Positions 2,322 to 14,476 of a stretch of 64,000 nt of DNA are shown here, piece after piece. The notes beneath the pieces are model-generated. The model ran no database searches and was not told where the DNA came from. It saw only the letters and a list, made by a program, of their open reading frames with translations. Every line of letters starts with the position of its first letter. Within the stretch, counting starts at the first letter, position 1. Origin of the DNA: Williamsia soli (GTDB taxonomy: Bacteria > Actinomycetota > Actinomycetes > Mycobacteriales > Mycobacteriaceae). The stretch spans positions 124,001 to 188,000 of the forward strand of contig NZ_JAFRDR010000006.1 in NCBI RefSeq assembly GCF_017377795.1, written 5' to 3'. The translations under genes and the position numbers were made by a program.

Positions 2322-2993
2322 ATGATGGCTGCCATCTTGTTTGGATCAATCAGTACTCTCGCGGACACCTCCGAAATTCAGCGCCGTGCGTTCAACGAAG
2401 CCTTTGAAGCTCACGGATTGAACTGGAAGTGGGGTCGAGACGACTACATCTCCATGCTATCGAGTAACGGTGGCGCGCAACGCATTGCCGACTACGCCGA
2501 GTCTCGCGGCGAGACCGTTGATGCGGCTGCAGTGCACGCGACCAAATCGTCGATTTTCCAGGAACTGGTGGCGATGCTGGGTATCGAGCCTCGCGCCGGC
2601 GTCCTTGACGCGGTTGCGGCTGCGAAGACCCACAACGTCAAACTCGGCCTGGTCACGACGACATCACCCGAGAACGTCACCGCGTTGCTCGCCGGACTTC
2701 CGGACGTTTCTCGCGAAACCTTCGACGTGGTCGTCGATTCGGCCACTGTGGACACGGGGAAGCCTGACCCGGCGTCGTACAAGTACGCGTTGGATCAACT
2801 CGGGGAAGACGCGGGCTCGTGCGTCGCGATCGAAGACAATGTCGGCGGCGTGCACGCGGCCACCGCCGCCTCGGTGATCTGCGTGGCGTTCCCGAACCAG
2901 AACACCGTGAGTGGCGACTTTTCTGAAGCCGTCGAGGTAGTCGGTGAGCTCGATGCAGATCGTCTGCGCGCCTTGACCGGCAACGACCACTAG
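2322..2993 (+). CDS. Degenerate HAD-superfamily protein (CbbY-like fold, catalytic Asp pair missing)
   Basis: 223 residues from ATG 2322, chosen because AGGAAGGA at 2311-2318 is well placed and the family similarity begins there. The fold is HAD subfamily I (CbbY/beta-phosphoglucomutase-like): alpha-helical cap ([13 protein letters not shown]), motif II threonine region (LVTTTSPEN), motif III lysine (DTGKPDP) and motif IV acidic IEDNVGG are all present. However motif I, normally DxDGT, reads FGSISTL: the nucleophile Asp is Gly8 and the acid/base Asp is Ile10. Phosphatase activity by the normal mechanism is therefore unlikely; a binding, scaffold or regulatory role for a sugar-phosphate substrate is possible. 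It is the first gene of the operon, 28 bp before the sedoheptulose-7-phosphate cyclase. Confidence 0.8.
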
Positions 2994-3021
2994 CGCTCAA
3001 CGGCAGTCAGAGAGGATTCAG

Positions 3022-4248
3022 ATGAGCGACATCCAAGCCCGTGTCACCGCTACCGAACGTGCATTCCACGTGGAAGGCTACGAGAAGATCGAGTACGACC
3101 TGTTATACGTCGACGGCGTCTTCGCCATCGACCAGCCACATCTGGCCGACACCTATCGCGGCTACGGCCGTTGCCTGATGGTGATCGATGAGAGCGTATA
3201 CGCGCTTTACGGAACGCAGATCCATCGTTACTTCGACCACCACGACCTGCAGCTCACGGTTGTTCCCGTCGGCATTGCCGAAACTGCGAAATCGCTGGGC
3301 ACCTACGAGGACATCGTCGGCGAATTCGACGCATTCGGCCTCGTCCGGACCGAACCCGTCCTGGTGGTCGGCGGCGGTCTGACAACCGATGTGGCCGGTT
3401 TTGCGTGCGCCAGCTATCGACGGAATACACCGTACATTCGCATACCGACCACCTTGATCGGACTGATCGACGCGAGTGTGTCGATCAAGGTGGCGGTCAA
3501 TCACGGCAAGCACAAGAATCGGCTGGGCGCCTACCATGCCTCTGAAAAAGTGTTGCTGGACTTCGCGTTTCTCCGAACCCTGCCTGCCGACCAGGTACGA
3601 AACGGTATGGCCGAGCTCATCAAGATCGCGACCGTCGGTAACTCCGCCATCTTCGACATGCTCGACGAGTTCGGCCCCGAACTCCTGCGCACCCGATTCG
3701 GACATCTGGACGGAACTGCAGAATTGCGCGCGGTGGCCGACAGGCTGACATATCAGGCCATCGAGACCATGCTCGAACTCGAAGCGCCCAATCTCCATGA
3801 GCTGATGCTCGACCGGGTCATCGCGTTCGGGCACACGTGGAGTCCCACACTCGAACTCTCACCTCCGGAGCCGTTCTTCCATGGTCACGCGATCAACATC
3901 GACATGGCGCTGTCGACAACGCTCGCCGAGAAGCGCGGGCTCATCTCCGTCGACGACCGAGACCGCATCCTCGGAGTGATGAACCGCCTGGGCCTCGCCC
4001 TCGACAGCGACCATCTGACCCCCGAATTGCTCTCTGAGGCAACGCAGTCCATTCTCAGGACGCGAGATGGACTGTTGCGGGCGGCGGTCCCCAACCCGAT
4101 CGGGCACTGCACGTTCCTCAACGACGTCACCGTCGACGAGCTCGCCGACACACTCACCGTGCACAAGAAGATCTGTCTCGACTTCGAGCGCGAGGGTGCA
4201 GGGGTCGACATGTTCACCTCGGCCCCGATGGCCTCCGTCGATGGCTGA
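3022..4248 (+). CDS. mysA: Desmethyl-4-deoxygadusol synthase (sedoheptulose 7-phosphate cyclase)
   Basis: 408 residues, dehydroquinate-synthase-like fold. NAD site [13 protein letters not shown] (about 115-127) and metal ligands Glu198 (MAELIK), His271 (GHTWSP) and His287 (FHGHA) are intact. Sugar-phosphate cyclases are separated by substrate-pocket residues; as I recall them, DDGS has Glu254, Ala268 and Thr347 where 2-epi-5-epi-valiolone synthase has Leu, Asp and His. This protein has Glu254 (LELEAPN), Ala268 (VIAFGH) and Thr347 (RTRDG), all DDGS-type. The product would be desmethyl-4-deoxygadusol from sedoheptulose 7-phosphate. AGAGAGG precedes the ATG. It overlaps the methyltransferase start by 8 bases, so the two are co-translated. 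The neighbours complete a mycosporine pathway. Confidence 0.9.
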
Positions 4249-5074
4249 GACGGTGTCGATCCCGTCGCATCCGGTGACGCCGTCGTCAATCCTCGCGGCG
4301 GAGCTGGCCGAACTCGCGGAGTTGGTCGACGCGGCTCCCGAGCTCGATCCCGGGCTCAAGGAGCGGCTACGCCGGGCGCGCGACCTGGCGCGTGGCCTCG
4401 ATCCCTACCTGCAGGAGTGCTCGACACCGGAGTCGCCGGCGCTCGCTGCTCTGGCGGCGCGTACCCGGGCTGAACCATGGGGAGACCGGTCTCTGGTCTC
4501 CGGATCGGGGCCGTTGGAACAGGAGATGCTCTCGGGACATGTGGAAGGCCAGACGCTGAAGTTCCTGGTCCACATGACCCGCGCCCGCCGGGTCCTCGAC
4601 ATCGGGATGTTCACCGGGTACTCGGCGCTGGCCATGGCCGAGGCGCTCCCCGACGATGGCGAGGTGGTTGCGTGTGAGGTCGATCCCTATGTCGCCGACG
4701 TCGCCCGCCAGTGTTTTGCCGAATCACCTGCTGGGGGACGGATTCGGGTGGAGGTGGGTCCGGCCCTGAATACCGTTCTCCGGCTGGATGGTCCGTTCGA
4801 CCTGGTGTTCATCGACGCCGACAAGACCGGGTACCTCGACTACTTCCACTACCTCATCGGTAGTGACCTCCTCGCGCCGCGCGGCGTGATCGCCGTCGAC
4901 AACACGCTCCTACAGGGGGAGCCGTACGCGTTCAACGGTGCTCGATCCACCAACGGGCAGGCGATTGCCGACTTCAACCGGGTCGTCGCCAAGGATGCCA
5001 GGGTGGAGCAGGTATTGCTGCCGTTGCGGGACGGGTTGACTCTCATCCGGCGTACGGGTGTGGACGGGTCATGA
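4241..5074 (+). CDS. mysB: O-methyltransferase of the mycosporine pathway (4-deoxygadusol-forming)
   Basis: 277 residues from ATG 4241, whose first bases overlap the cyclase stop (ATGGCTGA). Class I SAM-dependent methyltransferase of the caffeoyl-CoA/catechol type: SAM motif [18 protein letters not shown], acidic loop ACEVD, and metal/catalytic segment [10 protein letters not shown] followed by [11 protein letters not shown]. In mycosporine pathways MysB methylates desmethyl-4-deoxygadusol to 4-deoxygadusol. A longer upstream reading exists but lies wholly inside the cyclase gene. It is followed by the ATP-grasp gene with an ATGA overlap at 5071-5074. Function is assigned from family plus cluster order. 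Confidence 0.87.
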
Positions 5075-6372
5075 CAGCAGCGTCGTCGATCAGGACAATC
5101 GGTGCACTGGCGGGACTCCTCGTGACGTTGCCGGTCGATCTCGCGATCACTGCGATCGCCGTGCTCCGTCGCGTGCCACCGCCGGTGGTGGACGAAACGA
5201 GCAGGCGCCGCACGGTGCTCATCACCGGCGGCAAGATGACCAAGTCATTGTCGATCGCCCGCGCCTTTCATCTGGCCGGGCACCGGGTCATCCTGGCGGA
5301 GTCCGCGAAGTATCGATTCACCGGCCACCGGTTCTCGAAGGCCGTCGACAGGTTTCACTGCCTTCCGGAACCGACGTCGCCACACTATGCCGACGCATTG
5401 CTCGACGTGGTCAAGCGCGAAGAGGTCGATGTCTTCGTGCCGGTCTCGAGTCCGGCGTCCAGTGTCTTCGAGGCGGATGCGGGGGAGAACCTCGGCGACT
5501 TCTGTGACGTCGTCCACGGGAACGTGCGTACGGTGCGGATGGTCGACGACAAAGATCACTTCTCGGAGTTCGCGCGGTCGATTGGTGTCCGGGTGCCGGA
5601 CTCGCGGCGCATCACCGACCCGATCCAGATCTCGGAGTTCGACTTTCCGCCGGGCCGCGAGTACATCCTGAAGCGTATTGCCTACAATCCCGTCGGTCGC
5701 ATGGACCTCACGAAACTCTCCCGCGAGACGCCGGAGCGCAATCTGCAGTTCGCTGCGAGCTTGTCGATCTCCGAGGATGATCCGTGGATTCTGCAGGAAT
5801 ATGTTGCAGGCCAAGAATATTGCACGCACGGTACCGCGCGTTCAGGGGATCTGCAGGTGTACGCGTGCTGCGAGTCGTCGGCCTTCCAGGTCAACTACGA
5901 GATGGTGGACAAACCGGAAATCCTCTCGTGGGTACAGAGGTTCGTGGGTCGGCTCGGCGTGAGCGGCCAGTACTCGTTCGACTTCATCGAGGGTGCCGAC
6001 GGGCATGTCTACGCAATCGAGTGCAATCCCCGGACCCACTCGGCCATCACGATGTTCGAAGGCCACCCACAGCTGGCCGCCGCCTATCTCGACGACCGTC
6101 ACCCGATGATCGTTCCGGAGGTGGATTCGCTGCCGACGTATTGGATCTATCACGAGCTCTGGCGGTTGCTGACAGAACCGGGTCGACGCGATCGCATGCG
6201 GGTCATCGGACGGGGACGCGACGCGATCTTCGCAGCATGGGATCCTCTTCCGTATCTACTCGTTCATCACCTCCAGATACCGTCTTTGCTCGTCAAGAGC
6301 CTGGTCACCGGAAAGGTCTGGACGCGTATCGATTTCAACATCGGCAAGCTCGTCGAGCTGGGGGGCGATTGA
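5071..6372 (+). CDS. mysC: ATP-grasp ligase, mycosporine-glycine synthase type
   Basis: 433 residues. A hydrophobic segment lies near the N-terminus (about 10-31), then a Rossmann-like pre-ATP-grasp domain (VLITGGKMTKSLSIARAFHLAGH), then the ATP-grasp fold (REYILKRIAYNPVGR; WILQEYVAGQEYCTHG; YSFDFIEGADGHVYAIECNPR with the metal-binding Glu/Asn). MysC family enzymes activate 4-deoxygadusol with ATP and couple glycine to give mycosporine-glycine. Position third in the DDGS/O-MT/ATP-grasp/ligase order and ATGA overlap with the methyltransferase support this. The hydrophobic N-terminus may be a membrane contact. Confidence 0.87.
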   Translation: MTAASSIRTIGALAGLLVTLPVDLAITAIAVLRRVPPPVVDETSRRRTVLITGGKMTKSLSIARAFHLAGHRVILAESAKYRFTGHRFSKAVDRFHCLPEPTSPHYADALLDVVKREEVDVFVPVSSPASSVFEADAGENLGDFCDVVHGNVRTVRMVDDKDHFSEFARSIGVRVPDSRRITDPIQISEFDFPPGREYILKRIAYNPVGRMDLTKLSRETPERNLQFAASLSISEDDPWILQEYVAGQEYCTHGTARSGDLQVYACCESSAFQVNYEMVDKPEILSWVQRFVGRLGVSGQYSFDFIEGADGHVYAIECNPRTHSAITMFEGHPQLAAAYLDDRHPMIVPEVDSLPTYWIYHELWRLLTEPGRRDRMRVIGRGRDAIFAAWDPLPYLLVHHLQIPSLLVKSLVTGKVWTRIDFNIGKLVELGGD

Positions 6373-7406
6373 TGCAAACGCTGAAGGTTCTCGCGCTGGC
6401 GGGCTCGCCCGTCGACTACTTCCGCGCCGACCTGTCCCGGGTGTACGCAACGGGCTTCGTGGATGCGCTCAGGGGTCTGGACGGTTACCGGGTGGAGGTG
6501 GCCTACGTCTCGCCCGATGGCAGCTGGCGGTTCCTGAGTGGGCTGACCGAGGACGAGATCGCTGCAGCGCAGCCGATCTCTCTGTCGGACGCCGTTGGCT
6601 ACATCCAGGCGCGCCGGTATGACGTGATCGTTCCTGAGATGTTCTGTCTCCCGGGTATGACGGCGTACCGGTCTCTGTTCGACGTGATCGGCGTCCCGTA
6701 CCTGGGTAACCGCGCCGATGTCATGGCGCTGACGGCCGACAAGCAGTTGACCCGCACTGTAGTCGCCGCTGCGGGAGTCGCGGTCCCCGCCGGTGAGGTG
6801 GTCAGGGCCGGTGAGAAGTACACCGGAGAATTGCCCGTGGTCGTCAAACCCGCGGACTCCGACAATTCCATGGGTGTGGCTCTGGTACGAGAAGACCCGG
6901 ACATGGACCTCGCGATCGACGATGCGCTGCTGTACTCGGATTCGGCGCTCGTCGAAACCTACGTACCGTTGGGCCGAGAGGTACGGTGCGGCATCATCGT
7001 TCGCGACGGCGAGTTGGTGTGCCTGCCGCTCGAAGAGTATGCAGTCGATGAGCAGGATCACCCCATCCGCGCTCGCGCCGACAAGCTGGACCGGACAGCG
7101 GACGGTCAGCTGTATCTGGTGGCGAAGGAGTCCACCAAGGCGTGGATCGTCGACGTGGACGACCCGGTGACCGAGGCGGTGTGGGCCGCTGCTCGACGCG
7201 CTCACGTCGCTCTCGGTTGCAGGCATTACAGTCTGTTCGATTTTCGGATCGATCCGGCAGGCGTGCCCTGGTTCCTCGAGGCCGGACTGTACTGCTCGTA
7301 TTCACCGAGCAGCGTGATTGCTGTGATGGCCTCCGCCGCAGGTGTCACCGTCGATGAGTTGTTCGCGATCGGCCTGCGGGAGATCGCACAGGAGAAGGCT
7401 CGCTGA
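6372..7406 (+). CDS. mysD: D-Ala-D-Ala ligase-like ATP-grasp enzyme (second amino acid of a mycosporine)
   Basis: 344 residues from ATG 6372, overlapping the upstream stop (TGATG). ATP-grasp domains: N-terminal flavodoxin-like lobe (LALAGSPVDYF; YDVIVPEMFCLPG), central lobe (LPVVVKPADSDNSMGVALV; ALVETYVPLGREVRCGIIV) and C-terminal catalytic segment (SLFDFRIDPAGVPWFLEAGLY). In mycosporine clusters MysD condenses a second amino acid (serine in shinorine, threonine in porphyra-334, others) onto mycosporine-glycine, making the imino-cyclohexene chromophore. Amino-acid choice cannot be read from sequence. It is the alternative to the NRPS-like MysE, which is absent. It overlaps the dioxygenase start at 7406. 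Confidence 0.87.
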   Translation: MQTLKVLALAGSPVDYFRADLSRVYATGFVDALRGLDGYRVEVAYVSPDGSWRFLSGLTEDEIAAAQPISLSDAVGYIQARRYDVIVPEMFCLPGMTAYRSLFDVIGVPYLGNRADVMALTADKQLTRTVVAAAGVAVPAGEVVRAGEKYTGELPVVVKPADSDNSMGVALVREDPDMDLAIDDALLYSDSALVETYVPLGREVRCGIIVRDGELVCLPLEEYAVDEQDHPIRARADKLDRTADGQLYLVAKESTKAWIVDVDDPVTEAVWAAARRAHVALGCRHYSLFDFRIDPAGVPWFLEAGLYCSYSPSSVIAVMASAAGVTVDELFAIGLREIAQEKAR

Positions 7407-8167
7407 TGAGGTATCAGGTCGTCGATCCGATCGGTGCCCGCGTGACCGACCTGTCCTTGGACGAGGTGGGCCCCGCTGAGGTGGACCGACTCGAGAACCT
7501 CCTGGCCGAGTTCGGCGTGGTGGTCATACCTGACCAGAACGTCGACGACAGCGGATTTCTCGCGTTTCTGGAACGGTTCGGCGAGCTGATGTTCACTTCG
7601 GGCGAGTTGCCGCTCGCCGGCTACCCTGACCTCAACGTCATCAGCAACGTCGGCCGGACGACACCGCCGAAGTCCACCTTTCACGTCGACACGACGTACG
7701 TGTCGCAGCCGCCCCGGTACACCGCGTTGCGTGCGGTGCACGTGCCCACAGAGGGCGGCCACACCCAGTTCAGCAACCAGTACGCGGCGTACGACACGCT
7801 TCCGGATGAGATTCGCGACGACCTGGCCGGTCGCGTAGTGACCCATGTTGTCACCGGGGTGGATCCGGGCGCTGACGCGGAAACGTCCGCTGCCCATCCG
7901 ATCTTCCTGGACCACCCGTTGTCGGGAAGGACCGCGCTCTACTTGTCGGCAGCGGCGAGGTGTGCGGCGATGAGCGGCAAGACGTCGGAAGAGACAGCGG
8001 AGATCATTGCCTACCTCATTGCCCACTCGACCCGCGAGGACAACGTCTTTCGGCACGCCTGGTCCGCCGGTGACGTGGTGATGTGGGACAACCGGGTTGT
8101 CATGCACCGCGCCGACCACAGCGGTGTGGTCGGCGACCGTGTGATGCATCGGGGAATGGTCCGTTGA
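7406..8167 (+). CDS. TauD/TfdA-family Fe(II)/2-oxoglutarate dioxygenase, putative mycosporine tailoring enzyme
   Basis: 253 residues; ATG 7406 overlaps the ligase stop (TGATG). The 2-His-1-carboxylate triad is visible: His93 and Asp95 in FHVDTTY and distal His234 in WDNRVVMHRAD, with Arg245 or Arg249 near the C-terminus available for 2-oxoglutarate. The body is typical TauD (EFGVVVIPDQ; LRAVHVPTEGGHTQFSN). As the last gene of the mycosporine-like operon it probably hydroxylates or oxidatively trims the final product. Known palythine-forming MysH enzymes are, to my knowledge, phytanoyl-CoA-dioxygenase-like Fe/2OG enzymes, a different branch, so this may be a distinct tailoring step. The reaction is inferred from context only. 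Confidence 0.82.
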   Translation: MRYQVVDPIGARVTDLSLDEVGPAEVDRLENLLAEFGVVVIPDQNVDDSGFLAFLERFGELMFTSGELPLAGYPDLNVISNVGRTTPPKSTFHVDTTYVSQPPRYTALRAVHVPTEGGHTQFSNQYAAYDTLPDEIRDDLAGRVVTHVVTGVDPGADAETSAAHPIFLDHPLSGRTALYLSAAARCAAMSGKTSEETAEIIAYLIAHSTREDNVFRHAWSAGDVVMWDNRVVMHRADHSGVVGDRVMHRGMVR

Positions 8168-8983: not shown

Positions 8984-10240
8984 TCAGTTGACTGCGGAGC
9001 CCTCGACATCGCCGGATTTCAGCTGTCCTAGAACAAGAATGAGGATCAGGGCAACGGCTACGGGGATGCAGGCGAGGAGAACAATCGTGCTGGTGGCGAC
9101 CCCGAGTCCGATGAGCGCACCACCGACGATCGGTCCGACGACCGATCCGAGTCGGCCCATCGACGAGGTCCAGCCGACCCCCGTTGCCGCGGTTGCCTGC
9201 GGATACAGGGACACCGAGACGGCGGCCTGCCCGATCATCCCGGCCTGAAGACCCAGGCCCACTCCGGCGAACACCACGAGCAGCAGGGCTTTGTCGGCGC
9301 CGAGGAAGGCCGACAGTACGAGGAAGACGATCGCCACCGCGGTGGTGCCGGCCAACACGGAGGTCATTCGAAATCGCAACGCTCCGACCATCAGCACGCC
9401 GGCGCCGATGATGCTGCCGATTCCGAGCGCGGCCGAACCGAGCGGTGCCAGGCCCGTGGTGAATCCGTAGCTCGTCAGCAGGGTCGGAAGCCAGGACGAG
9501 AAGATGTAGAAGACCGAGAACACCAGAAAGGCGAAGGCCCACAGCAAGATCGTGCGGGAGCGGACCTGTGGTTCGAAGAGCCGGGCAACCGATGCGTCGT
9601 GTTTGGCCCTCGGTGACGAGGCGACCACACCGGTGACCGTGCGCTCGTCGGGAAGCCACCGCCACAGGAACGGCAGTAGTACCGCAGACGCGATCGCGCC
9701 GAGGATGAACACCCATTCCCATCCGAATGCCCCGACGATCTGGGATCCGGCGAGGCCGGCGATGAGCGCACCGAGGGAGATGCCCATGGTCACGAACACA
9801 GCTATCGATTGGCGGTAACGAGTCGGGTTGAGTGCGGTGGCCTGCGCCACGGCTGCGGGCATCACGGCACCGAGCCCGAACCCGGTGATGAACCGGAGCG
9901 CGCTGAGTTCGATGATGGAACCGGCCCACGCAGTGAGCAGTGATCCGATCGTGAAGGCGACCACGGCGGCGAGGATGACGTGGCGACAACCGAAACGGGC
10001 CGTCAGGCGTCCCACCGCGATGTAGCCGAGTGCGACGCCGAGGCTGGTCAGAGACAGCGCCGGAGTGAAGTGAGAGGCCGAGACGTCCCAGTCCTTGGAC
10101 AAGGCCGGGACGGACAGGCCAAGGGCGATGGTGTCGTAGCCGTCCAGCACAACGGCGATGAAGGCGAGGGCGAGCACGGGCCAGTTCGGCCGGGTGATCT
10201 CGCCGGTACTGGTCTGCTGGGTCATGGTCGGTCCGCTCAT
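8984..10240 (-). CDS. MFS transporter, aromatic acid:H+ symporter (AAHS) type
   Basis: 418 residues with about 12 hydrophobic segments. AFIAVVLDGYDTIALGLSVPAL in the first helix contains the DGYD signature of AAHS transporters (PcaK/BenK/MhpT group), followed by the loop 2-3 MFS motif GRLTARFGCRH. Such carriers import benzoate, protocatechuate, 3-phenylpropionate and similar acids. It is the most distal gene of the minus-strand catabolic operon, 48 bp after a RidA gene, and supports an aromatic acid as the growth substrate. Start may be ATG 10240 or ATG 10225 (MTQQ). Confidence 0.88.
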   Translation of the reverse strand: MSGPTMTQQTSTGEITRPNWPVLALAFIAVVLDGYDTIALGLSVPALSKDWDVSASHFTPALSLTSLGVALGYIAVGRLTARFGCRHVILAAVVAFTIGSLLTAWAGSIIELSALRFITGFGLGAVMPAAVAQATALNPTRYRQSIAVFVTMGISLGALIAGLAGSQIVGAFGWEWVFILGAIASAVLLPFLWRWLPDERTVTGVVASSPRAKHDASVARLFEPQVRSRTILLWAFAFLVFSVFYIFSSWLPTLLTSYGFTTGLAPLGSAALGIGSIIGAGVLMVGALRFRMTSVLAGTTAVAIVFLVLSAFLGADKALLLVVFAGVGLGLQAGMIGQAAVSVSLYPQATAATGVGWTSSMGRLGSVVGPIVGGALIGLGVATSTIVLLACIPVAVALILILVLGQLKSGDVEGSAVN

Positions 10241-10288
10241 GATGGCGTCCTTGTGGTTGTCGATGCGTGAGCACCGGTTGGGTTGATT

Positions 10289-10693
10289 TTAGTCGCCCGC
10301 GGAACGGGCTTTCGGTAGGAATCCCTGCGCTTCGATCTCGACGGTGAGGCCTGGGTCGACCAGGGCAGACACCTCGACGAGGGTCGAGCACGGGAACGGT
10401 TCGGTGAAGACCGCGCTGCGAGCGCGGGAGACTGCCTGCTTGTCGGCGATGTCGGTGACGTAGATACGCAGAACGACGATGTCGTCGGCGTGGGCCCCGC
10501 ACGCTCGGGCGAGCGCCTGCGTCCGGCGGAAGGCCTCGACTGCCTGCGCATGGGTATCGTTGCCGCCGATCGGGCCGGACGGTGAACCCGCGTGCATTCC
10601 TGACAGGAAGAATTGGTCGCCGACGATTCGGGCGTTGCTGAACATGTCCGGGCGCGGAGGTGCCGGAACGGAGGGGTCGTCCACCCCGGTCAT
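10289..10693 (-). CDS. RidA/YjgF family protein (first of two in the operon)
   Basis: 134 residues. Family segments: FSNARIVGDQFFLSGMHAG, QAVEAFRRTQALARACGAHADDIVVLRIYVTD, and C-terminal CSTLVEVSALVDPGLTVEIEAQGF. RidA proteins hydrolyse enamines/imines; in aminophenol and nitrobenzoate catabolism members act as 2-aminomuconate deaminases. Its ATG (10691-10693) overlaps the stop of the upstream 111-residue gene as ATGA. A second RidA gene lies at the head of the operon (19446-19814), suggesting an imine or enamine intermediate in the pathway. Exact substrate unknown. Confidence 0.85.
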   Translation of the reverse strand: MTGVDDPSVPAPPRPDMFSNARIVGDQFFLSGMHAGSPSGPIGGNDTHAQAVEAFRRTQALARACGAHADDIVVLRIYVTDIADKQAVSRARSAVFTEPFPCSTLVEVSALVDPGLTVEIEAQGFLPKARSAGD

Positions 10694-11025
10694 CGGGTGC
10701 CCACCGCTCGGCGTGCGTCTGACTCACGGGTGAGGCGGTCGCGCACGTCCGAGAAGTCATAGGTGGGGTAGAACTCCGTCCGGAACGTGCCCCACGCTCG
10801 CCGCTCGAGTTCGACGTTCACCGCCGCCAGCCGATCGGCGGGTAGCCGCAGCGTGACGATCTGTCCGATGCCCATCGCGACCACCCAGGAGACGACCTCG
10901 CAATCCTCGGGTGGGAAACCGTGCCACCAGTCGCTGGCGTCGAGGCGGCCCTGCAACTGCTCCAGGTTCTGGCTCTGGTCGTGCCGCAGGAAGATCGTCA
11001 GCATCAGGGTGTCGGTGCCGGTCAT
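10690..11025 (-). CDS. Conserved small protein of Rieske oxygenase operon, unknown function
   Basis: 111 residues from ATG 11025, overlapping the Rieske stop (ATGA at 11022-11025). It starts MTGTDTLMLTIFLRHDQS and continues DWWHGFPPEDCEVVSWVVAMGIGQIVTLRLPADRLAAVN. The alternating beta/alpha pattern and size suggest a dimeric ferredoxin-like alpha/beta-barrel such as muconolactone isomerase or EthD relatives, but I do not recognise a named family. Placement between a Rieske oxygenase and RidA, all translationally coupled, implies a role in the same pathway: isomerase, accessory or product-binding protein. Confidence 0.7.
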   Translation of the reverse strand: MTGTDTLMLTIFLRHDQSQNLEQLQGRLDASDWWHGFPPEDCEVVSWVVAMGIGQIVTLRLPADRLAAVNVELERRAWGTFRTEFYPTYDFSDVRDRLTRESDARRAVGTR

Positions 11026-12113
11026 GTGTTCGCGGCCGCGAGGGTCTGCGCCTGCGCGGTGGCGTCGGCGCGGTACAGCCGCCGGATCCGCGAGACGCCG
11101 AGGTCGTGCTGATAGAGGTGTTCTTCGCGGTCGGCGTCGCCGGCCAACACCTCGAGCACCGCACGGTCCTGTTCGAGGACCTCCCAGTGTTTCGCCTCCA
11201 GCTGCGTCCGGTACAGGAATCGCCAGGTTTCGCGTTCCCAGCCGCTGACCCTGCGGGTGCGCCAGTGGAAGATCGCCGACGTGTTCCGGTCGATCGGTGT
11301 GCTCATCCCGACGATGCCGAAGACTCCTCCGGGCCCGGCGGCCGGACCGTACGGGATCTCCAGATCGACGAAGTCCATCGATCCGCGGACGAACTCGACC
11401 CAGTCGAAGTTCACACCGCGCTGGTCGGTCTTCTCGAAGAAGAACCCCCGGTCGGTCTCCCGGATACGGAACCGGGCGGAGATGTCGCCGCCGAACATCG
11501 AATGCGAATTGCGGTGCAGGAATGCCCCGTGCATGGGATCGAGGACGTTGTCCATGTAGAACCGCCACGGCCCGGCCCACTCCGCGTAGTTCGGGAACCA
11601 CGACACCTCGGGGTCGGCGAGCCGATCCGGGAGCGCGAACGGCGTCGTCACCGAGTCCGCGGTCAGCGGGATGAACGCGAAGATCGTGTCGGCGGCCTCG
11701 ACGACGTCCAGTGACACCGTCGCGCGGCGGCCTTCGAGCGCGCACCCGGGCATGCCGGGAACCGAGACGACTGTGCCGTCCCCGTCGACCTGGACCCCGT
11801 GATAGAGGCAGGCGATCCGGTCGCCGAGGTGTTGTCCCACCGACAGCGGTGCACTGCGATGGGGACAACGGTCTTCGAGCATGCGGATCGTGCCTTCCGC
11901 GTCACGGAACAGCACCCAGTCCACCTCGAGTCGGCGGACCGGGACCATCGCACCGGGCTCGACCATGTGGGACGGGAGAATCGGGTACCACCGATCACGG
12001 AGGCCGGTGGCGGCGATCTCATCGGCATCGAGGTGCCGGCGGGTGCCGACGGCGAACTGGGGTCCGCGCGGGCGGGTGGCCGGCTTGGCGCTGGTGGTGG
12101 TGTCGGTGGTCAT
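11022..12113 (-). CDS. Rieske non-heme iron oxygenase, catalytic alpha subunit
   Basis: 363 residues from ATG 12113. Rieske [2Fe-2S] ligands are Cys83-x-His85 and Cys102-x2-His105 (DRCPHRSAPL ... CLYHG). The mononuclear iron motif is Asp192-x2-His195-x4-His200 (NVLDPMHGAFLH). This single-subunit architecture matches the phthalate 4,5-dioxygenase/vanillate demethylase group, which take electrons directly from a FNR-2Fe2S reductase; that reductase is encoded at 17871. It would hydroxylate or demethylate an aromatic ring. No beta subunit is present. The gene lies 1 bp from the stop of the 77-residue gene and overlaps the next one. Confidence 0.92.
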   Translation of the reverse strand: MTTDTTTSAKPATRPRGPQFAVGTRRHLDADEIAATGLRDRWYPILPSHMVEPGAMVPVRRLEVDWVLFRDAEGTIRMLEDRCPHRSAPLSVGQHLGDRIACLYHGVQVDGDGTVVSVPGMPGCALEGRRATVSLDVVEAADTIFAFIPLTADSVTTPFALPDRLADPEVSWFPNYAEWAGPWRFYMDNVLDPMHGAFLHRNSHSMFGGDISARFRIRETDRGFFFEKTDQRGVNFDWVEFVRGSMDFVDLEIPYGPAAGPGGVFGIVGMSTPIDRNTSAIFHWRTRRVSGWERETWRFLYRTQLEAKHWEVLEQDRAVLEVLAGDADREEHLYQHDLGVSRIRRLYRADATAQAQTLAAANT

Positions 12114-12114
12114 G

Positions 12115-12348
12115 TCACTTCCCCAATCTGCGCATCTCGGCGCGGAAGGTGTCGTCGGACCACGCTTTACCGTCGGGTCCGTGTAATCCCAGGGCATTGA
12201 GTCCCGCGACGACGTCGTCGAGAGTCGTTGCACCGCTGCTGAACACTTCGGTGAGCGAGCCTGAGAGCTTCATCTCGTACGGCGTGATCGGTTCCGGGTG
12301 GGTCTGGTTTGCTTCGAGATATGGCTCGCGGGCTGTGCGAGTTGTCAT
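12115..12348 (-). CDS. Small protein with recombinase-like helical domain
   Basis: 77 residues from ATG 12348, which overlaps the stop of the preceding gene (ATGA at 12345-12348). The C-terminal half TTLDDVVAGLNALGLHGPDGKAW followed by DDTFRAEMRRLG copies the pattern of the helical segment in serine-recombinase Recombinase domains (ALNxxGxxxPxGxxW...). No catalytic or complete DNA-binding domain exists. I recall similar tiny proteins beside Rieske oxygenase genes, but their function is not known to me. Translation coupling to the oxygenase suggests an accessory role rather than recombination. Confidence 0.65.
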   Translation of the reverse strand: MTTRTAREPYLEANQTHPEPITPYEMKLSGSLTEVFSSGATTLDDVVAGLNALGLHGPDGKAWSDDTFRAEMRRLGK

Positions 12349-12800
12349 CGGAGTGCTCCTTCGACAAGTGGGGTGGGTGGGGTGAGATACGTGCCGCCAC
12401 GTGCTGCGAGTCCTTCTGCGATGGCGACGAACGATGAGCTCCACTCTGTGAATGAGGCTCGGCTTGCGGTGTGGACCGGGCGCGCGGACCCGTCCACGAC
12501 GACGAAGATCGCGTTGTCGATCTCGCCGGCGAACTGCTGGGCGACAGTCAGATCGGACTCGACGTCCTCCGCGGAGGCGACGACGAGCGTCGGAACCGTG
12601 ACGGCGGCGAGGGAAGCGCTCACATCCGCCGGCGGGGTCGTCGGATCCGCGAGTACGAGACTCAGGACGGCGTCCGGATGCACGATGGCGAGTCGCACGG
12701 CTTGCGCCGCATCGTCGCCCGCAGCGAACACATGAGTGGGTTCACCGGCCTCGACCGCGGCTTGCGCGCCGTCGTCCCACCACAGGGTCGTGGCGATCAT
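12345..12800 (-). CDS. Short alpha/beta-hydrolase-fold protein lacking the usual serine nucleophile
   Basis: 151 residues from ATG 12800, overlapping the TPP-enzyme stop. The segment HVFAAGDDAAQAVRLAIVHPDAVLSLVLADP matches the nucleophile elbow and following helix of alpha/beta hydrolases, and VPTLVVASAEDVESD matches the strand carrying the acid. At the elbow GxSxG is replaced by G28-D-D30-A-A: the serine position is Asp. The usual C-terminal GH motif is not evident, and the first ~60 residues of the fold are missing. It is either a non-catalytic partner or an odd Asp-nucleophile enzyme. Intact reading frame and coupling on both sides argue against a pseudogene. Confidence 0.65.
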   Translation of the reverse strand: MIATTLWWDDGAQAAVEAGEPTHVFAAGDDAAQAVRLAIVHPDAVLSLVLADPTTPPADVSASLAAVTVPTLVVASAEDVESDLTVAQQFAGEIDNAIFVVVDGSARPVHTASRASFTEWSSSFVAIAEGLAARGGTYLTPPTPLVEGALR

Positions 12801-14476
12801 GAGTGTGCCTCGGAGGGAACGTGTACGGGAGGGACGAAGGGGCCGGGTACCGGATCGAGCGCGGCGACATCCACTTCGATCATCGTCGGACCGGTGCGGT
12901 CGATGGCGGAGGCCAAGGCGCCGGCAATGCTTCCTGCGCCCTGCACGAGGTGGTACGGGATGTCCATCGAAGCGGCGAGGAGGTCGAAGCGGGGAGTGTG
13001 CAGGTCGACACCGGAGCGGCGGAAGCCGTTCTTCTCCTGCATGTTCCGCAGGACCCCGTATCCGCCGTCGTTGAAGACAAGCACGATGACGTGGGCGCCG
13101 GATCCGGCAAGTGACGCGAGCTCACCGAGGTGGACCGCGAGACCGCCATCGCCGACCATGACCAGCGTCGGCACGTCGGGACGCGCGTGTGCGGCGCCGA
13201 TACCCATCGCGAGACCCTGGCCGATGCCGCCGCCGAGGGGGAAGACGTTGGTGGCTCGCTCGAAGATCGGCAGCAACCGGTTTCCCCACTGGCTCGACGG
13301 GATGGTGACGTCGCGGGCGATCACGGACCGGCGGGGCAGTACGGTCCGGACCGCATCGCAGATCTCGGCGTATCCGCCGATGTACTCGGTCAATTCGCGG
13401 CGGACACGGTCGCGGACCTCGGTGATCCGGGCCTGCCAGGTGCCAGACCCGGACGGCTCGCCGAGCGCAGCGGTGATTCCAGCGAGGGTCGTCTCGGCGT
13501 CACCGACGATTGCGACCTCGGCCGGATACACCCGTCCGACCGTGCTCGGATCGACATCGATCTGGATCAGGGTCGACGGTAGCGACAGTGAATAGGTGGC
13601 TGTCTCGTTGGAGCGGAAGTGCGTTCCGACTGCGAGGACGAGATCAGCGTCGGCGATGAGTTCGCGGGCCGCCGGAGTGGTTGCGAAGTTGCCGATGACC
13701 AGCGGATCGTCCTCGGGAACGATTCCCCTACCCGAGTTGCTGGTGAGAATGCCGGCTCCGAGACGATGGGCCAGCGCGGACACGATCTCTCCCGCGCCGG
13801 CGGCGCCGCCGCCGAGCCAGATGAGGGGTGACTTGGCGCCTGCCAGCAATTCGGCCGCTCGAGTCACCGATTGTGGGTCAGCGGGTGCCACCGCACGCGG
13901 CGTCGACTCGGTGGGACGCTGGTGTTCGGGCGATGCCAGATACTGCAGATCGGTCGGCCACTCGACGCTTGCGGGCCCCGACGGCGCGGACAGGATGCGG
14001 GAGATGGCCCACTCGAGCTCTGCCGCAGCCTCTTTGGCGTCGGTGATGGTGGCCGAGTGGGCGGAGACAGCCTCGAGCATCCGGGGCTGGGCCGGGAACT
14101 CGTGGATCACGCCGCGGCTCGAAGCGGGGCGTCCAGGACTGAGGTACTCGCTCTCGATCTGCCCGGTGATGTGCAGGACCCGGCTGCCGGCGGTGAGTGC
14201 TTCCACCATCGATCCTGCCGCGTTTCCTGCTCCGGTTCCGGTGCTGGTCAATGCGATTCCAATCCCTCCGGACGCTCGTGCAAAGGCGTCGGCCGCATTG
14301 ACGGCCGCGGCCTCGTGGCGCATCTCCACGAACTCGAGGTCGCGATCGACAGCCTCGACGAGCGGCAGGTTGTGGATGCTGATCACGCCGAAGGCGGTGG
14401 TGATGCCGTGTTTGCGCATCACGTCGACCAGCACGTCGCCACCGGTACGGCGACGGGTCTCGGGTTCTCGGTTCAT
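12797..14476 (-). CDS. Thiamine pyrophosphate-dependent enzyme (acetolactate synthase/benzoylformate decarboxylase family)
   Basis: 559 residues, full family length. The PYR domain has the catalytic Glu at about 55 (MRHEAAAVNAADAFAR) and GIALTSTGTGAGNAAGSMVEAL; the central domain has PLIWLGGGAAGAG; the PP domain has the TPP/Mg motif VMVGDGGLAVHLGELASLA through FNDGGYG. These enzymes decarboxylate 2-oxo acids or carry out acyloin chemistry. In a catabolic operon with a Rieske oxygenase a benzoylformate- or 2-oxo-acid-decarboxylase role is reasonable. CAGGAGAACACC precedes ATG 14476. It overlaps the next gene by 4 bases. Confidence 0.88.
   Translation of the reverse strand: MNREPETRRRTGGDVLVDVMRKHGITTAFGVISIHNLPLVEAVDRDLEFVEMRHEAAAVNAADAFARASGGIGIALTSTGTGAGNAAGSMVEALTAGSRVLHITGQIESEYLSPGRPASSRGVIHEFPAQPRMLEAVSAHSATITDAKEAAAELEWAISRILSAPSGPASVEWPTDLQYLASPEHQRPTESTPRAVAPADPQSVTRAAELLAGAKSPLIWLGGGAAGAGEIVSALAHRLGAGILTSNSGRGIVPEDDPLVIGNFATTPAARELIADADLVLAVGTHFRSNETATYSLSLPSTLIQIDVDPSTVGRVYPAEVAIVGDAETTLAGITAALGEPSGSGTWQARITEVRDRVRRELTEYIGGYAEICDAVRTVLPRRSVIARDVTIPSSQWGNRLLPIFERATNVFPLGGGIGQGLAMGIGAAHARPDVPTLVMVGDGGLAVHLGELASLAGSGAHVIVLVFNDGGYGVLRNMQEKNGFRRSGVDLHTPRFDLLAASMDIPYHLVQGAGSIAGALASAIDRTGPTMIEVDVAALDPVPGPFVPPVHVPSEAHS

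Follow-up and report, generated by a model that had tools for sequence, protein, structure and literature searches.

Gene clusters for mycosporine-like amino acid (MAA) sunscreens have been described from actinobacteria and cyanobacteria. The actinobacterial type is set out in the GATOR-GC preprint on Pseudonocardia alni (PMC11888242, 2025; cited here, as are the other papers, from part of its text), where the clusters encode a cyclase, an O-methyltransferase, an ATP-grasp protein, a D-Ala ligase-like protein, a haloacid dehalogenase-fold (HAD) protein and a TauD dioxygenase. The HAD and TauD genes are reported there as conserved companions of the MAA genes, and the role of the HAD protein is left open. 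The same gene set is present in Williamsia soli, in a 64,000 nucleotide stretch of DNA (the window), where six consecutive genes occupy positions 2322–8167 of the plus strand. The first of these encodes a HAD protein that has lost both catalytic aspartates, and it is this protein that is the main subject here. The available text of the preprint makes no mention of missing HAD aspartates, of CbbY ancestry, of divergent cyclases or of clusters lacking mysB.

A mycosporin-synthesis gene cluster was reported from another member of the genus, Williamsia sp. ARP1 (PMC4715301, 2016), as a cluster only and with no gene-level account in the text consulted; the locus of Williamsia herbipolensis strain ARP1 (L074), which is among those compared below, has the same gene order as the window. 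An operon with HAD and TauD genes in Rhodococcus fascians D188 gives shinorine, palythine and palythine-serine, according to a 2018 meeting abstract cited in PMC11888242. Cyanobacterial clusters share the mysA–mysD core with the window, and their TauD/TfdA dioxygenase, MysI, is proposed to hydroxylate, and so destabilise, the attached glycine (PMC10510106). Unlike the window, however, the 12 cyanobacterial loci compared here show no HAD or TauD match in the DNA covered, which is short in some of them.

The window operon is a member of the already described MAA operon type. An earlier sequence-only reading of this DNA had claimed that a mycolic-acid actinobacterium carries a full MAA operon, and the six gene calls and their family matches bear this out; the coordinates also agree with the order it gave, mysA-mysB-mysC-mysD plus tailoring. 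Of the "extra" genes that it placed at both ends, the first is the HAD gene. The arrangement is a common one that has already been reported.

Relatives were gathered by a search with MysA in a genome collection where each species is represented once. The best 80 matches gave 77 distinct loci, 65 actinobacterial and 12 cyanobacterial, the window not being counted. These loci are interrelated, and the counts given below do not represent independent events. In two loci (L018 and L068) the contig ends before the later genes come into view, and two others (L076 and L079) start or stop within mysA. The order HAD, mysA, mysB, mysC, mysD, TauD is found in 52 of the 77 loci, and the operon is frequent in genomes of Rhodococcus, Williamsia and Mycolicibacterium with this cyclase. 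HAD and TauD are both matched in 60 of the 65 actinobacterial loci (one of these TauD genes, in L052, looks broken). The rest are L032, which has the HAD without TauD, L060, which has neither, and three loci cut by contig ends, i.e. L018 and L068 (no TauD) and L076 (no HAD).

Loss of the catalytic aspartates in the HAD protein

The HAD gene (positions 2322–2993, plus strand) has a translated sequence of 223 aa and displays a Pfam HAD match with an E-value of 2.2e-19. Canonical HAD motif I is D-x-D-G. In the window protein the codons at positions 2343–2354 specify G8-S9-I10-S11 in its place, and alignment with CbbY shows that D8 is replaced by G and D10 by I. Proteins with this change are termed GS-HAD here. 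Gly8, Ser9 and Ser11 are each found in 64 of 64 sequences when the window is taken together with 63 of the loci; position 10 is Ile in 63 and Leu in one. Thr112, Lys147, Glu171 and Asp172 are invariant in the same 64 sequences, i.e. the motif III lysine and the motif IV acidic pair are kept. The relatives carry the same residues, which rules out that motif I is altered by a sequencing error or a wrongly placed start.

The change is also found in wider scans. In 397 genomes of the order, a collection that may overlap the first set of loci, there are 27 strong HAD matches including the window, and all 27 display G-S. Four further HADs from 346 genomes of the phylum are all G-S as well, one of them (L145) with Gly at position 11. 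Among the lower-scoring matches of the order scan, L107 and L108 keep Asp at motif I, and the L109 match stops short of the motif. Fifteen HADs from outside MAA clusters were compared: 11 are from plasmids (out of 17 plasmid records with a HAD match), two are the genomic L107 and L108, and two are taken from the PDB. Both Asp8 and Asp10 are kept in 14 of these, ten of the 11 plasmid sequences among them. The exception is a plasmid gene of Roseobacter litoralis (L140, positions 9989–10660), which reads G-S-I-G. It thus has the same G-S-I motif; it also shows the S17 and Q20 changes of the cluster proteins, and is located between genes for TrkH and an L,D-transpeptidase.

The HAD phosphatase mechanism requires an aspartate as nucleophile, and with this residue absent the mechanism cannot run. 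As judged from its sequence, the window HAD is predicted not to be a phosphatase. A literature search on missing HAD aspartates in MAA clusters gave nothing that points to them in the sources covered, most subscription journals being outside its scope.

The protein is nevertheless close to a phosphatase family. A profile made from 24 cluster HADs matches CbbY of Rhodobacter sphaeroides (4uat) at 182 bits and Arabidopsis CbbY at 122 bits, and the next solved structure at 67 bits. The predicted structure of the window HAD (pLDDT 94) has R. sphaeroides CbbY entries in the first three Foldseek places, at TM scores of 0.87–0.89 (0.87 for the first, 4uat), with Arabidopsis CbbY fourth at 0.75. CbbY takes phosphate off xylulose 1,5-bisphosphate (PMC10212915). 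The fold of the cluster HADs is like that of CbbY (4UAS–4UAV), however the cluster HADs are located in sunscreen operons and not in Rubisco operons; five of the plasmid HAD copies are in or near Rubisco operons. Comparison of the cluster HADs with seven of the 14 HADs that keep their aspartates shows 32 conserved positions kept in common, among them R21, N25, W37, Y42, G50, G51, R54, H72, K75, R91, K147, E171 and D172. Cap and pocket residues are assumed from the general HAD fold. In a midpoint-rooted tree without an outgroup, all 25 cluster HADs group together with a support of 0.72, and they group with the Roseobacter protein with a support of 0.99. From these alignments the window HAD is judged to be a CbbY-derived protein in which both catalytic aspartates are lost and many of the positions conserved in CbbY, including those of motifs III and IV, are kept.

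The gene is under strong constraint. The ratio of nonsynonymous to synonymous substitution (dN/dS) in three Williamsia pairs is 0.056, 0.048 and 0.052 for the HAD and 0.040, 0.039 and 0.068 for mysA. In the same pairs it is 0.081–0.105 for mysB, 0.077–0.104 for mysC, 0.121–0.162 for mysD and 0.138–0.224 for TauD. In these pairs the HAD and the cyclase are therefore under tighter constraint than the other four genes of the operon, and a ratio of about 0.05 rules out a decayed pseudogene. No viral origin of the GS-HAD was seen: a scan of viral contigs gave patterns at 17 places with no relative confirmed, and a phage collection gave three weak HAD matches with 25–30% identity.

The cyclase, the downstream enzymes and the predicted product

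mysA (positions 3022–4248, plus strand) begins after a gap of 28 bases from the HAD gene and encodes a predicted 408 aa protein with a Pfam DHQ synthase match of 2e-29. Its closest solved relative is the desmethyl-4-deoxygadusol synthase (DDGS) 5TPR, with 555 bits and 61% identity, as against 265 bits and 40% identity for the EEVS ValA (4P53). The DDGS-type residues Glu254, Ala268 and Thr347 claimed in the sequence-only reading are at those exact positions, and all 17 aligned proteins, from actinobacteria and cyanobacteria and with the window included, share them. 5TPR agrees with MysA at the three positions, whereas ValA has L (in the alignment made here), D and H. The value of these residues as markers of DDGS versus EEVS rests on the 5TPR/ValA comparison and on that earlier reading; PMC4426668 mentions a fingerprint, and the text consulted does not list E254, A268 and T347. 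Placement of the cyclase with the EEVS proteins, which would have told against the operon assignment, was examined by similarity and by residues rather than by a cyclase tree, and the bit scores favor the DDGS side. An EEVS identity is ruled out by the scores and the residue comparison, and MysA is, on its sequence, assigned as a DDGS-type cyclase and not an EEVS or dehydroquinate synthase (DHQS). The same genome has only this one DDGS. A second cyclase match, 28% identical, is located elsewhere in the genome and is presumably the organism's own dehydroquinate synthase.

The remaining genes, all on the plus strand, follow closely. mysB (4241–5074) encodes a 277 aa O-methyltransferase (Pfam Methyltransf_3, 3e-45). 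mysC (5071–6372) encodes a 433 aa ATP-grasp ligase of the PRK06849 type that is expected to add glycine; it has no Pfam match, and its NCBIfam match to NF005315 is at 401.2 bits, just below the cut-off of 406. mysD (6372–7406) encodes a 344 aa ATP-grasp protein similar to D-Ala-D-Ala ligase (Dala_Dala_lig_C, 6.6e-16). The last gene (7406–8167) encodes a 253 aa Fe(II)/2-oxoglutarate dioxygenase of the TauD/TfdA family (PF02668, 2.1e-52). All six reading frames are open. The overlaps of 4–8 bases described earlier hold for mysA/mysB (8 bases) and mysB/mysC (4 bases), but the last two junctions, mysC/mysD and mysD/TauD, overlap by 1 base each and the HAD and mysA are separated by the gap given above. 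Identities to the 12 cyanobacterial loci are 55–61% for mysB (11 of the 12), 48–53% for mysC (11 of the 12) and 48–50% for mysD (two of the 12).

MysD displays Leu249 and Ala257 in an alignment of the omega loop, and cyanobacterial MysD proteins with an L-A pattern favor shinorine (PMC11983340). The correspondence of L249/A257 to the published numbering comes from the alignment made here, where the residues in two cyanobacterial MysD are Y-S and F-S. Shinorine is predicted from the match to the L-A pattern.

The dioxygenase called in the sequence-only reading is present, and it belongs to the TauD family and not to the phytanoyl-CoA family of MysH; PF02668 is its sole family match, and a MysH-type enzyme was rejected on this ground. 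The model (pLDDT 94) has PlaO1 as its top Foldseek match. Residues H93, D95, H234, T120 and R245 are invariant in 22 of 22 aligned proteins, and by analogy with TauD we take them to bind iron and 2-oxoglutarate. The likeness to MysI is one of family and of intact Fe/2-oxoglutarate residues. In Rhodococcus sp. 1168 the TauD gene looks interrupted (L052, positions 12176–12847), with a short frame and 30% identity, against about 60% or more in most relatives.

The pathway steps are drawn from family membership and from published work on relatives. MysA would cyclise sedoheptulose 7-phosphate to desmethyl-4-deoxygadusol, which MysB would methylate. MysC would then attach glycine and MysD mainly serine, which would give shinorine. 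The TauD dioxygenase would oxidise the N-linked glycine, which would fall off and leave products of the palythine-serine type. By analogy with these relatives the expected product is probably shinorine and then, by way of TauD, palythine-serine, i.e. TauD probably trims the one to the other.

Among the best 80 matches the closest mysA sequences are those of Williamsia sp. 1135 (97%), Williamsia sp. 1138 (96%) and W. limnetica (92%). Of the 77 loci, only these three also have the upstream IclR gene and the mycothiol-type gene, both at an identity of at least 65%; the IclR match of L047 is weak and partial, and L005 matches the mycothiol-type gene at 36%. These closest relatives make Williamsia the most likely genus on sequence grounds as well. 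In the plasmid collection one record, from Nostoc, has mysA at an E-value of 1e-60 or better, and no Nostoc is found among the 30 plasmid records listed of the 266 matched by TauD.

Some loci show no mysB match between mysA and mysC. These are L026, L028 and L038 (Mycobacterium-type) and, from two genomes of the window's family, L087/L115 and L092/L118. Methylation in such clusters would require another enzyme or be absent. In L026 and L028 a gene that by eye resembles an FAD amine oxidase follows TauD. Downstream of the window operon and outside it, a separate group on the minus strand at positions 8984–12233 has an aromatic-acid type MFS transporter (best NCBIfam match TIGR00895, below cut-off), followed by genes that by eye resemble those for a RidA-type protein and a Rieske oxygenase.

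Possible partner and role of the HAD protein

The HAD gene is directly upstream of mysA in 63 of the 63 loci in which both are found, and the gap is at most 200 bases in 61 of them (mysA is counted from where its BLAST match begins, so that the gap in L075 is overstated). The position of TauD varies: it is found after mysD, between mysB and mysC (three loci) and on the opposite strand (two loci). L032 (Aeromicrobium sp. Root472D3) and L153 (genome G604) have the HAD without a TauD match. Since the HAD is constantly beside the cyclase and TauD is mobile, gene order points to the cyclase as the partner. The scan of 397 genomes of the order gave 29 with a DDGS (E-value below 1e-200), and every one of the 27 with a strong GS-HAD is among these. 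The two genomes with a DDGS and no GS-HAD, G083 and G150, are of one genus; the G083 locus (L154) has mysABCD and neither HAD nor TauD.

Two genomes of the phylum sample, G636 and G500 (loci L150 and L151), have a GS-HAD with no DDGS at an E-value of 1e-150. Both have mysB, mysC, mysD and TauD, and the cyclase that adjoins the HAD is only 35–38% identical to the window MysA. These divergent cyclases, in MAA-type clusters of another class of Actinomycetota, are at positions 9990–11789 of L150 (minus strand, with a long N-terminal extension) and near 9891–10991 of L151 (minus strand). E254 and A268 are kept and Lys is at position 347, together with other changes. The closest solved relative of the cyclase in G636, whose frame has a long N-terminal extension, is still 5TPR (238 bits versus 185 for ValA). 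Among 66 genomes of this class the GS-HAD is found only in these two.

The explanation favored here, to which about an even chance is given, is that the operon would make an imine MAA and that the HAD would be a non-phosphatase, CbbY-derived binder of sugar phosphate. It would bind sedoheptulose 7-phosphate or another sugar phosphate and help or regulate the adjacent cyclase. We infer, with modest confidence, that the partner is the cyclase and the ligand a sugar phosphate. A broader proposal, which is put forward tentatively, is that the actinobacterial MAA pathway may have a dedicated and ancient CbbY-related pseudo-phosphatase that now serves as a sugar-phosphate-binding partner or regulator of sugar phosphate cyclases and is kept even with a divergent cyclase.

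Several observations weigh against a role of this kind. Fourteen positions with no or almost no variation among the cluster HADs are switched relative to all seven CbbY-like proteins (D8 to G, D10 to I, G11, E17 to S, H20 to Q and S173 to N among them), thus the HAD pocket is not the CbbY pocket unchanged. The HAD appears dispensable for the core pathway, as there are clusters without it (G083, G150 and L060). No MAA gene is found within about 10 kb of the GS-HAD gene of Roseobacter litoralis. In addition, HAD and TauD are jointly absent from L060 (Kineosporia babensis, in which mysA and mysB are about 1.6 kb apart), from L154 and from the DNA covered in the 12 cyanobacterial loci, and no uncut locus has TauD without the HAD. 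In view of this shared absence, the HAD may act with TauD and not with the cyclase. The GS-HAD would then be a working partner of TauD, e.g. a lyase or a carrier, with no phosphatase role, that completes the cleavage by which palythine is formed. The occurrence of the two together in the 60 actinobacterial loci, and the co-occurrence reported in PMC11888242, fit such a role. It is nonetheless held to be unlikely, as the HAD adjoins the cyclase wherever both are present while TauD moves, L032 and L153 keep the HAD with no TauD match, and in L052 the broken-looking TauD is beside an intact HAD.

The retained residues allow another interpretation, namely that the GS-HAD catalyses a new kind of reaction of a sugar phosphate or cyclitol, as an isomerase, lyase or similar enzyme that acts through Ser9 and Ser11 or other kept residues. 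The invariance of both serines in 64 of 64 sequences, the many positions shared with CbbY and a constraint about as strong as that of mysA are in its favor. This is also considered rather doubtful: a literature search on inactive HADs gave no precedent, the divergent copy L145 has Gly at position 11, and the clusters without the HAD in L060 and L154 have the full mysABCD core. That the GS-HAD is a weak or ordinary phosphatase which removes an inhibitory sugar phosphate, as CbbY does for Rubisco, would agree with its fold and family and with the kept Lys147, Glu171 and Asp172, but is most improbable in view of the absence of both motif I aspartates from every MAA-cluster copy read, for a mechanism that needs its nucleophile. 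Just as remote is a cluster that makes no MAA at all, the cyclase being an EEVS or the genes silent or broken. No MAAs were observed in a culture of Actinosynnema mirum (PMC10384724, in the text consulted); however the six frames are open, the cyclase is of the DDGS type, purifying selection is found on all six genes, and products are reported from the Rhodococcus relative.

The operon itself is ordinary. What is added here is the consistent loss of the HAD catalytic residues, which bears on the role left open in the GATOR-GC preprint. The sequences predict that a phosphatase assay of the GS-HAD would be negative, and they point to binding and to a partnership with the cyclase. If this is true, the pathway would have an unusual component, related to a metabolite-repair phosphatase but catalytically dead, with a constraint close to that of the cyclase, and such a component might matter for the engineering of sunscreen production.

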